The notes under the pieces are model-generated. The model saw nothing but the letters and a program-made list of their open reading frames with translations, had not been told where the DNA came from and did not search any database. This document shows positions 17,051 through 21,174 of a stretch of 24,506 nt of DNA, one piece after another; within the stretch, counting starts at the first letter, position 1, and every line of letters begins with the position of its first letter. The position numbers and the translations under genes were made by a program. The stretch is from the IMG/VR virus record IMGVR_UViG_3300021962_000627, positions 1 to 24,506 of that record; one strand, written 5' to 3'. The DNA comes from a virus.

Positions 17051-17292
17051 TAGATCGGCAACCTTGATCCAGTGCGTTTGATAAGATTGAGTGACGCAGC
17101 TTCTGACTGAAGCAGCTTACGCATAGTAGGAGTCATGAGCTTGGATACATTCTCAAACTCAAGACCAGTCTTTTCACAGACATCGGTAATCGCTTCGAGA
17201 TAGCTCATACCTTTGTCGCTGATACGAAGTTCCACCATCGAGATGAATGTGTTGGAACTCATGATGCTTGCTACAGCTGCTGTCTCACTCAT
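17050..17292 (-). CDS. 33: Late transcription coactivator gp33-like
   Basis: An 80-aa, mostly helical protein. 'ISMVELRISDKGMSYLEAITDVCEKTGLEFENVSKLMTP' in parts, and 'LQSEAASLNLIKRTGS' match the short gp33 proteins of cyanophage-type T4-like phages; T4 gp33 is 112 aa. gp33 binds the RNA polymerase flap and connects it to the sliding clamp at late promoters. Position beside gp59 and gp32 is the T4 synteny, and exact TATAAATA sites in the window show the pathway is in use. The family is poorly conserved, so the identification depends on synteny as well as sequence. Confidence 0.75.
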   Translation of the reverse strand: MSETAAVASIMSSNTFISMVELRISDKGMSYLEAITDVCEKTGLEFENVSKLMTPTMRKLLQSEAASLNLIKRTGSRLPI

Positions 17293-17831
17293 TTATCATA
17301 TCCTTCGTAGGGGACGTTCTGTGCGCCGCTCCAGAATAGTGTGTTGTCAAGTTTGAGTTTGCTGTTTCCAGCTTCGGCAATCTCAGCAAGAGTGCGATCA
17401 CAGCCAATACACTTTTCGCCGGCTTCGTCAAGCTGACAAATCTTTACACAAGGTGTTTGCTTAGGAACTGTAATAGGGACAGTTGCACGACCACCAACGC
17501 TACGACGAACGATATCTTCGCTAAGTGCTTCTGGATAGTAAAGTTCTAGTGCAGAACAATCTTCGAGGCAGTTGAACCAATGAAACTCGCCAGGACGGAC
17601 AGAAGTATAATCACCTGCTCGAAGAGTGGTGACATCGGTAAGATCATAGTTATTCTTTGCGACATGGATTTCCAGCACTCCTGAGATGACATAGAATCCG
17701 TTCCACTTGTGTTCATGCTTATGCTCCGAGCAGCGATAGCCAGCTTTGACATTGATCTTGTGAAGTTCAACCAGCGAGTTCTGAAACAGAACGCTTGTGT
17801 CACCCCAAACCTTTCCAGTGATGTTTCCCAT
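17289..17831 (-). CDS. Cupin-DUF1289 fusion protein
   Basis: A 180-aa protein of two parts. Residues about 15-100 are a cupin barrel: motif 1 with His37, His39 and His41 ('GYRCSEHKHEHKWNGFYVISG') and motif 2 'GDYTSVRPGEFHWFN' with His84, so a metal-binding site is likely. Residues about 125-160 resemble DUF1289: 'TPCVKICQLDEAGEKCIGCDRTLAEIAE' in parts, with Cys128, Cys132, Cys141 and Cys144 as probable zinc or Fe-S ligands. The fusion is unusual to me, and neither part reveals a substrate. It overlaps gp33 (ATGA) and is co-translated with the Tat-signal gene upstream (TAATG). A role in sensing metal or redox state, or in sugar modification, is speculation. Confidence 0.78.
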   Translation of the reverse strand: MGNITGKVWGDTSVLFQNSLVELHKINVKAGYRCSEHKHEHKWNGFYVISGVLEIHVAKNNYDLTDVTTLRAGDYTSVRPGEFHWFNCLEDCSALELYYPEALSEDIVRRSVGGRATVPITVPKQTPCVKICQLDEAGEKCIGCDRTLAEIAEAGNSKLKLDNTLFWSGAQNVPYEGYDK

Positions 17832-18262: not shown

Positions 18263-18445
18263 TCAACCTTTTGGCACACAAGCCAGTTTGTAATTATCCC
18301 AGATACCGCGACCGTATTTCTTTTCTTCAATAAACTTCAACGCATACAAACACGATTCGTAGGTATTGAACTCTTGGAACTTGACGTTCTGACCGTTGCC
18401 AGCGTTACCTGAGAAATATGTAATAACCACAAGAACGTAGATCAT
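18263..18445 (-). CDS. Small membrane-targeted or secreted protein (60 aa)
   Basis: It begins 'MIYVLVVITYFSGNAGNG', a short hydrophobic leader, followed by 'FQEFNTYESCLYALKFIEEKKYGRG' and 'NYKLACVPKG'. The two cysteines in the mature part could form a disulfide, which fits a periplasmic protein. The pattern 'F.s...C..al......C.p' recalls many small secreted proteins of proteobacteria and their phages. The start overlaps the KdsA stop (ATGA), which supports its reality, and it is 6 bases from the Tat-signal gene. Confidence 0.65.
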   Translation of the reverse strand: MIYVLVVITYFSGNAGNGQNVKFQEFNTYESCLYALKFIEEKKYGRGIWDNYKLACVPKG

Positions 18446-19266
18446 CGCCTCAAACCTCGTTTTGATATGATGTCCAATTCTACTAAATCATACAGCAGTT
18501 TCTCGAAGCTGTCAAGATAAATCATGTTCGGACCATCAGATGGAGCGAAGTCTGGCGACTCGTGAACTTCCATGAACAACGCAGCTACGCCAACAGCAAC
18601 AGCAGCGCGAGCCATTGTCGGCACATACTGACGCTGTCCGCCAGAAGTCATACCGTTTCCGCCAGGAAGCTGAACAGCATGAGTGCAATCCATCACAACA
18701 GCGTTGGTGTATTGCTTCATTACTTCCAGAGAACGCATATCGACTACAAGATTGTTGTAGCCAAATGTCGTGCCACGCTCTGTGAACATATACTTGTCGC
18801 AGCCAAACTTACGCAGCTTCTCAGCAACATTCTTCATTTCCCACGGAGATAGGAACTGACCTTTCTTCACGTTGACGGGCTTACCTGTTTCTGCTGCCGC
18901 GCGAATAAGATCAGTCTGTCGGCAAAGGAACGCAGGGATTTGTAAGATATCAGCCTGCACTTGTTCACATTGCCATGATTCGTGAACGTCCGTGAGAACC
19001 TCGATGTTCCTAGCACGGACGGCCTCCATTCCGTAAAACGCCTCGTCGAAGCCGCTACCTCTACTACTATCTGCGGAACTTCGATTCGCTTTATCGAAAG
19101 AGGTCTTATAAATGAAGTTGATTTCTCTGTCGAACTGTTGTCCGACCTTGATACAGATTTCCTTGAGGGACTCTGCCATCATGACTGCGTGATCCTTAGT
19201 CTCGAACGCACAAGGACCAGCGATGATACTCAAGGGTTTGTCATTACCACAGTTTTCATAGAACAT
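18442..19266 (-). CDS. kdsA: 3-deoxy-8-phosphooctulonate synthase (KdsA), metal-dependent class
   Basis: A 274-aa, full-length KdsA. It would condense phosphoenolpyruvate with arabinose 5-phosphate to make KDO 8-phosphate, the precursor of the inner-core sugar of LPS. Visible family blocks are 'TSFDKANRSS', 'VNVKKGQFLSPWEM', 'FTERGTTFGYNNLVVDMR', 'GGQRQYVPTMARAAVAVGVAALFMEVH' in parts and 'APSDGPNMIYL'. Metal ligands of the class II enzymes are all present: Cys19 ('AGPCAFE'), His196 ('CTHAVQ'), Glu233 and Asp244. The related DAHP synthase (AroG-type) is excluded by the ANRSS and GPN motifs. All key residues are intact, so it is probably active. It is embedded in a phage operon with a 3-base gap upstream and ATGA overlap downstream. 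Confidence 0.95.
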   Translation of the reverse strand: MFYENCGNDKPLSIIAGPCAFETKDHAVMMAESLKEICIKVGQQFDREINFIYKTSFDKANRSSADSSRGSGFDEAFYGMEAVRARNIEVLTDVHESWQCEQVQADILQIPAFLCRQTDLIRAAAETGKPVNVKKGQFLSPWEMKNVAEKLRKFGCDKYMFTERGTTFGYNNLVVDMRSLEVMKQYTNAVVMDCTHAVQLPGGNGMTSGGQRQYVPTMARAAVAVGVAALFMEVHESPDFAPSDGPNMIYLDSFEKLLYDLVELDIISKRGLRR

Positions 19267-20182: not shown

Positions 20183-20716
20183 TCACGGGTTTTTGTTTGA
20201 ATGCGGAACATCGAATACAAATGTAATTCTATCGACTGTTCCAATATTCTTTGCGGAATGCGGTAACTTGTTATTGAACCAGAAGAAAGTTCCTGGCTTG
20301 ATAACATGTTCTTCACCATCCACTTCATACAGATATTCGCCTTGTAGAGCGAAGTGATATCTATCACGCGAAAGATAATAAGTTCCGTCGTCGATATGAC
20401 GACCAACACGATTGTTGGGCTTTAGCTTGAAGAAAGCTGCGCGAGATGTTTTCTCAATACCCCATCCGCGCAACCAGTCATGAACCTCGTGATACTTATC
20501 GAACAATGGTGTATTCTGCTGTTCTTCGCAGTTCTTCGGGTTGACACGAATAGAAGGAACTGCAGCCATAACAAGCGGAAGAAATCCGTAAGGATCTAAG
20601 TTGCCCGCGATATTATCGTAGGTCGACACAGCTTTCCAATCATCGGGATTGTCGAGTACCTTTTGAAGGATAGGCTTGTAGGATTCGGTAAGACTAATAA
20701 ATCTAAAGTTGCTCAT
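20183..20716 (-). CDS. Aspartyl/asparaginyl beta-hydroxylase-like Fe(II)/2-oxoglutarate protein
   Basis: Starting at ATG 20716 the protein has 177 aa (an in-frame TTG lies four codons upstream). The double-stranded beta-helix signature of the Asp/Asn hydroxylase family is clear: His107-x-Asp109 in 'NRVGRHIDDGTYYLSRDRYHFALQG' (in parts), distal His153 in 'PGTFFWFNNKLPHSAKNIG' and Arg163 in 'DRITFVFDVP', which would hold 2-oxoglutarate. All ligands are intact. Such enzymes hydroxylate residues in proteins or peptides; the phage substrate is unknown. It is the first gene after the tmRNA on the same strand. Members of this family are frequent in marine T4-like phages. Confidence 0.83.
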   Translation of the reverse strand: MSNFRFISLTESYKPILQKVLDNPDDWKAVSTYDNIAGNLDPYGFLPLVMAAVPSIRVNPKNCEEQQNTPLFDKYHEVHDWLRGWGIEKTSRAAFFKLKPNNRVGRHIDDGTYYLSRDRYHFALQGEYLYEVDGEEHVIKPGTFFWFNNKLPHSAKNIGTVDRITFVFDVPHSNKNP

Positions 20717-20882
20717 CTTTACATACAAAGGTCTTCATATCGGGAGTGATGTACTCTATGGCGACTAGTATCACCATAGTAATTATAATTCGAAAACCAA
20801 GCGAAAAGTAAACCAATCATGGCGCATTCTTTCATTAGAGAGGTGGGGGGATTCTGTTCCAAAGCTCCCCCCTTGCTCGTTC

Positions 20883-20924
20883 TTAGGCTGCTAGAGCGTA
20901 AGAGATAGGTGCATTATCGTTTGC
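20883..20924 (-). other. tmRNA tag reading frame, peptide ANDNAPISYALAA
   Basis: From the resume codon GCA (20924-20922) the frame reads ANDNAPISYALAA and stops at TAA (20885-20883). The bases before it, TAGAT-GCA, follow the UAG-N2-GCA arrangement of E. coli tmRNA. The AND(N) start and ALAA end are the conserved parts of tags; the end is the ClpXP recognition signal in bacteria. Confidence 0.95.
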
Positions 20925-20987
20925 ATCTAAAACGCGCTTTCGGTCTCCTCGTAGCTTTACTACGCACGTCGATCCTATTTCGCCCCC

Positions 20988-21069
20988 ATCAAGAATACAC
21001 CGCTGTGTTTCGGTTGGGGCTTACTTATATTCATAAGGTTTACCCATGTAGTCCGTGTCGATGTATTCG
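20988..21069 (-). other. Intervening segment of the permuted tmRNA gene
   Basis: 82 bases between the CCA end of the acceptor piece and the G-run of the coding piece. GAATACA near its 5' end (21068-21062) and TGTATTC near its 3' end (21000-20994) are perfect complements, extending the acceptor stem region into a closed precursor, as expected for a segment cut out by tRNA-processing enzymes such as RNase P and RNase Z/E. It has no coding sign. Confidence 0.75.
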
Positions 21070-21140
21070 TGGTGGAGGCGGTGGGTACTGCCCCCACGTC
21101 CGAAACGTCTATTCCATACGCCTCAACGACCTCAGCATAT

Positions 21141-21174
21141 TATTTATACTAAGCGGTTTGACGTTGATTGTCAA
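21141..21174 (-). promoter_or_regulatory. Overlapping early-type and late-type promoters of the tmRNA
   Basis: Minus strand: TTGACA at 21174-21169, 17 bases, TAGTAT at 21151-21146 (4 of 6 for a -10). Overlapping it, an exact late element TATAAATA at 21148-21141. Either would start RNA near 21139-21133, just before the acceptor piece. The -35 part lies inside the exonuclease gene, whose stop TAG (21151-21149) begins the -10. Confidence 0.6.

Follow-up and report, generated by a model that had tools for sequence, protein, structure and literature searches.

In typical two-piece tmRNA the tag frame is flanked by the pseudoknots PK1 and PK2, PK1 lying between helix P2 and the resume codon (PMC3985003), and in the tmRDB feature table mitochondria alone lack PK1 (PMC1168896). 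Almost every bacterial tmRNA so far described retains PK1, and arguments about what it does have come chiefly from engineered mutants of E. coli: it was initially reported as required (PMC3968760); a hairpin or a single strand can stand in for it (PMC3968760, PMC4236655); and chimaeras in which PK1 was swapped together with its neighbours were impaired in tagging (PMC4236655).

tmRNA has been recorded in 402 phages, with 53 unique structures of the two-piece type, and a permuted tmRNA in 17 of 47 contigs resembling that of phage Melnitz (PMC9004378); 79 bacteriophage tmRNA sequences are listed elsewhere (PMC11915505). Methylophilales phage Melnitz (MZ577097) is a T4-like myophage with a permuted, alpha-type two-piece tmRNA and a gammaproteobacterial host (PMC9004378). 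Permuted alpha-type tmRNA genes were also found here in cultured phages of the alphaproteobacteria Rhodobacter, Mesorhizobium and Erythrobacter: RcSimone-Hastad, RcRudolph, RcXuper, Mesorhizobium phage Cp1R7A-A1 and Erythrobacter phage vB_EliS-L02. In none of the five is the gene so annotated in GenBank (loci L002, L397, L398, L399 and L401 of our set), and the RcRudolph record has a hypothetical protein in its place, spanning the gene. The TLD-only tmRNA of mycobacteriophage DS6A and the one-piece tmRNAs of Bxz1 type are likewise phage-encoded (PMC4131195), but they are not permuted, and that of DS6A has no tag frame.

The DNA analysed here (the window) is a virus record of 24,506 nucleotides, a 24.5-kb contig. 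Homologues of the T4 core genes gp32, gp59, gp53, gp5, gp25, gp48/54, gp2 and gp4 place it with the T4-like myoviruses, and ARAGORN finds a tRNA-Gln on it. An earlier note on this DNA had proposed a permuted alphaproteobacterial-type tmRNA in a T4-like phage, correctly on both counts, and had thought the combination hardly described. This last opinion has been overtaken by the literature, two-piece phage tmRNAs having been published in 2022 (PMC9004378), and by the further examples in cultured phages; published and database evidence together rule out plain rarity as the point of interest. The inference that the gene points to the host class is also weaker than was supposed: the host class cannot be read off an alpha-type tmRNA, since Melnitz carries one and infects a gammaproteobacterium (PMC9004378).

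Structure and conservation of the permuted gene

ARAGORN and two Rfam models agree on a complete, permuted two-piece tmRNA gene on the minus strand, a strand left unstated before, at about 20845-21138. ARAGORN calls tmRNA* (permuted) with the tag ANDNAPISYALAA; RF01849 (alpha_tmRNA) matches with 102.9 bits (E 2e-27, gathering threshold 50) and RF04321 (tmRNA_permuted) with 102.8 bits (gathering threshold 47), both about twice the threshold. The parts described earlier, namely the acceptor helix of 7 bp, the encoded CCA, the TTTCGGAC stretch, the tag frame, the intervening segment of 82 bases and the permuted order, were all found as described.

The acceptor piece (21070..21138, its 5' end placed from promoter spacing) precedes the coding piece (20845..20987, its 3' end approximate), and the two are joined by the acceptor stem and P2. 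Reading from its 3' end, the acceptor piece comprises the encoded CCA (21070-21072), a discriminator A (21073), the acceptor-stem strand CGCCTCC (21074-21080), the T arm GTGGG-GGCAGTA-CCCAC (21081..21097) and the P2 strand GGTCGTTGAGGCGTA (21117..21131), the last two assigned by covariation. CGCCTCC forms seven base pairs with GGGGGCG at the start of the coding piece (20981-20987), among them the alanine identity pair G3-U70. The intervening segment (20988..21069) could close end to end in a helix of 10 pairs, GAATACATCG with CGGTGTATTC. Within the coding piece a linker of 17 nt, GAAAGCGCGTTTTAGAT (20925..20941), where PK1 would be expected, leads from P2 to the resume codon and retains UA at -5/-4 (the A86 equivalent); it is followed by the tag frame with its TAA stop (20883..20924) and by an H-type pseudoknot (20845..20879; GAGC/GCTT and GGGGGGA/TCCCCCC). 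A 5-bp hairpin, CGTTT/AAACG, at the resume codon of the window was dropped because, by eye, it was inconsistent across relatives. The glutamine riboswitch reported in the 3' domain of the Melnitz ssrA (PMC9004378) was not found here at Rfam thresholds.

Minimum-free-energy cofolding of the two pieces recovered the acceptor and T stems and was unreliable for P2; as the same was true of bacterial controls, covariation was used as the test of P2 instead. For the 107 listed phage genes of the short-spacing type described below, RNAalifold finds acceptor stem, P2 and T stem alike, most of their variable pairs showing compensatory changes, which puts the gene well outside anything chance would give; acceptor-stem variants include GGGCCAG/CTGGTCC and GGGCCGG/CCGGTCC. 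All five positions of the T stem are paired in 107/107, with compensatory changes at three, and G3-U70 is likewise present in all 107, as is the CCA end, which the extraction script required. The A at -4 of the resume codon, which sets the frame in E. coli (PMC2481249), is kept in 105/107. The downstream pseudoknot can be drawn in 104/107, against 23% of shuffles, through 46 distinct stem-2 helices. The end helix of the intervening segment is found in 99 of 101 listed genes, as 83 different helices, compared with 29 in shuffles. Compensatory changes in the inter-piece helices and the T stem, together with the retention of G3-U70, of the A that sets the frame and of the pseudoknot after the tag, show that the tmRNA is under selection.

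Three of the loci (L006, L016 and L018) share an identical tmRNA of this type, with the stem GGGCCGG/CCGGTCC, in which the intervening segment is just 5 nt (TTTAT); this RNA may be processed differently or retained as a single piece.

A phage lineage lacking PK1

In the window 63 nt of the coding piece precede the resume codon. At least 107 distinct phage genes, that of the window included, have a similarly short spacing of 59-68 nt, and at least 106 others a long one of 75-87 nt; the spacing of the listed phage genes is thus bimodal, with none between. Two motif scans that ignored spacing had yielded 41 distinct short-type and 15 long-type phage genes, and the larger totals come from two further scans by spacing, which choose their class by construction. 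In 59 alphaproteobacterial genes, picked from high-scoring matches, the spacing is 83-87 nt. A pattern test on 385 alphaproteobacterial genomes, this being the only bacterial class compared, gave the long spacing in 162; the short spacing appeared in two, in each case by chance, outside tmRNA and away from the long-pattern tmRNAs of the same genomes.

The RNAalifold consensus places the final P2 pairs at GACC/GGTC, which leaves the 17 nt of the linker in the window. In none of the 107 listed short-spacing genes do the 21 nt that lead up to the resume codon allow an H-type pseudoknot, whereas 48 of the 59 bacterial genes and 90 of the 106 listed other phage genes have room for one within 42 nt. 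Judged by these alignments, the stretch missing from the short-spacing genes is PK1, and the pseudoknot that typical two-piece tmRNA carries between P2 and the resume codon (PMC3985003) was looked for in the window and found to be absent. A large, phage-only branch without PK1, set against its retention in the bacterial genes checked, appears to be new, and was not recorded in the earlier note. The known phages differ from the window in this respect: Melnitz has a spacing of PK1 length (counted from TCGAC, 62 nt where the window has 43), as do RcSimone-Hastad, RcRudolph, RcXuper and Cp1R7A-A1 (65-69 nt, counted likewise). The alphaproteobacterial two-piece tmRNA of Caulobacter type (RF01849) shares with the window the permuted order, acceptor stem, P2, T arm, G3-U70, resume context and downstream pseudoknot; the phage genes depart from it in the loss of PK1, a shorter segment after the tag, different tags, a promoter of phage type and a longer intervening segment (median 82 nt, against 34 nt).

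When the PK1 columns are left out of the alignment, the resulting tree requires 6 changes for the PK1-less label, against 50 when shuffled, and 2 for the bacteria; this tree, on about 118 columns, is poorly resolved, and PK1 may have been lost once. These figures, weakly resolved as they are, bear on the idea that the gene is a recent capture from a host or a decaying passenger. Its alpha_tmRNA score of 102.9 bits, mostly far exceeded in alphaproteobacterial genomes, could be read in that way, but the tree, the compensatory changes throughout the molecule and the phage-type promoter of nearly all listed genes already contradict it, and we regard it as most improbable.

The preferred reading, which is likely to be correct, is that the two-piece tmRNA of the window is functional, belongs to a phage-specific lineage without PK1, depends on host SmpB and supplements or replaces host ribosome rescue during infection. 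That PK1 should be dispensable in a phage tmRNA accords with the E. coli mutants in which a hairpin or single strand replaces it (PMC3968760, PMC4236655). A quite different role, which we consider unlikely, is that of a decoy, the RNA mainly titrating SmpB or blocking host trans-translation, as has been proposed for the TLD-only RNA of DS6A: expression of a TLD-only phage tmRNA inhibits the tmRNA of E. coli (PMC11915505, PMC4131195), and loss of PK1 could weaken tagging yet spare SmpB binding. A decoy would, however, have no need of the tag frame, the A at -4 (105/107), the stop codon and the LAA end that are kept across the 107 listed genes. With all its other elements in place, a large natural lineage devoid of PK1 makes the question of what PK1 does testable on evolved molecules.

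Candidate early and late promoters

Upstream of the acceptor piece, on the minus strand, lie a sigma-70-type -35 hexamer TTGACA (21169..21174), a -10 hexamer TAGTAT 17 nt from it (21146..21151) and, offset from the latter by 3 nt, the octamer TATAAATA (21141..21148). This octamer is the T4 late promoter consensus (PMC5587285), and by motif and position it is a candidate T4-type late promoter. Transcription would start at about 21138, which is the end given to the gene in the earlier note, where these putative overlapping promoters went unremarked.

Counted over whole records, the octamer was hardly commoner than the reversed pattern, and the test was therefore made on where it lies with respect to the gene. 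The octamer, with NATAAATA counted, stands between -75 and -83 relative to the CCA end in 97/107 listed PK1-less genes and at a fixed upstream place in 0/59 bacterial ones; it is missing from 7 of the 102 listed genes that could be tested. Its background is 0.5% of random 33-nt stretches from the same loci, a test in which the reversed-pattern control is compromised by its overlap with the octamer. A -35-like element occurs at a fixed place in 84/107 listed PK1-less genes and, again, in 0/59 bacterial genes.

The late promoter might nonetheless be illusory, the octamer being simply the -10 element of a single sigma-70 promoter and the gene an early one, as has been proposed for Melnitz, where an early promoter was inferred (PMC9004378). 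The likeness of TATAAATA to a -10 element means that one promoter could explain both motifs where they are 17 nt apart, as they are in 35 of 77 listed genes and in Melnitz itself (L400), which has TTGACA-17-TATAAATA directly upstream of its tmRNA, a promoter termed early only in that report. Against this, the gap is 20 nt in 32 listed genes, the window included, and almost all of these have, distinct from the octamer, a TANNAT hexamer at 17 nt; these genes may thus carry two offset, putative promoters. In addition, 18 listed genes have the octamer and no -35 element, as do the late genes gp25 (with the variant GAATAAATA) and gp48/54 of the window, while gp32, which is also present in most large records of the PK1-less relatives, has in the window a -35/-10 pair and no octamer. 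A single early promoter seems to us a serious possibility, though somewhat improbable. The sigma-70 promoter, the overlapping late promoter or both could allow early and late expression; such overlap predicts when, and hence why, phages make their own rescue RNA, a matter left open in the Melnitz paper.

Tag, proposed function and neighbouring genes

The tags of the 107 listed PK1-less genes are of 51 different kinds, 97 of the 107 ending in LAA; Melnitz shares with the window the ANDN...LAA form. As far as could be tested the tag is the phage's own, as the earlier note had it: none is common to the 213 listed phage genes and the 59 bacterial ones, and in 84,980 species genomes the exact tag ANDNAPISYALAA did not occur, as searched by a pattern with AAC at codon 2 and TAA or TAG stops. 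A search of plasmids gave no match, and in the search for a cellular homologue through the tag 21 loci had an ANDNAPI reading, none of them called tmRNA by ARAGORN. In four permuted tmRNAs (L031, L032, L077 and L059) the tag frame does not start with ANDN, and for the first three ARAGORN reports the long tag AKKSTTFASILPVKVERVSLVQEALAASA.

In another reading what matters most is the phage-specific tag, which would give stalled proteins a different fate from that conferred by the host tag, such as slower or adaptor-independent proteolysis. The separation of phage and bacterial tags, even though the bacterial sample is of only 59 genes, the absence of the window tag, as far as the pattern reaches, from the species genomes, and the failure to find a phage SspB in 18 records are all compatible with it. 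So many different tags with an ordinary ClpX-type LAA end are, however, what would be expected of plain degradation tags, and retagging of this kind is rather doubtful.

If the molecule is instead a working rescue RNA, as we favour, a sigma-70 promoter of host type, the T4-type late promoter that overlaps it, or both would drive a transcript beginning where the acceptor piece begins or just ahead of it. The precursor would fold through the paired ends of the intervening segment, which host tRNA-processing enzymes would excise, leaving two RNAs that the acceptor stem and P2 hold together. Charging by host alanyl-tRNA synthetase would depend on G3-U70, and host SmpB and EF-Tu would deliver the RNA to stalled ribosomes; 47 viral records, many of them fragments, yielded no SmpB, so host SmpB would be needed. 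Translation would resume at GCA, the frame being fixed by the A at -4, and the protein on the stalled ribosome, tagged with ANDNAPISYALAA, would be passed to host proteases of ClpXP type. The benefit to the phage may be that host rescue capacity is topped up or replaced while mRNA is broken down in infection; the phage would then alter ribosome rescue, as the earlier note had suggested. The fuller proposal, that a widespread, phage-only PK1-less lineage is expressed throughout infection from overlapping promoters and puts phage-tagged rescue in place of that of the host, we advance tentatively, as possible.

On the same strand as the tmRNA gene the window encodes a KdsA (3-deoxy-8-phosphooctulonate synthase, 18442-19266), above the NCBIfam equivalog cut-offs. 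This gene for an LPS-core sugar is rare in phage records, being found in 12, with best identities of about 43-45%. Near it, also on the minus strand, lie genes for a cupin/DUF1289 protein (17289-17831) and for an Asp/Arg-hydroxylase-like, weakly LpxO-like protein (20183-20728), and the three possibly form a surface-sugar or lipid A module.
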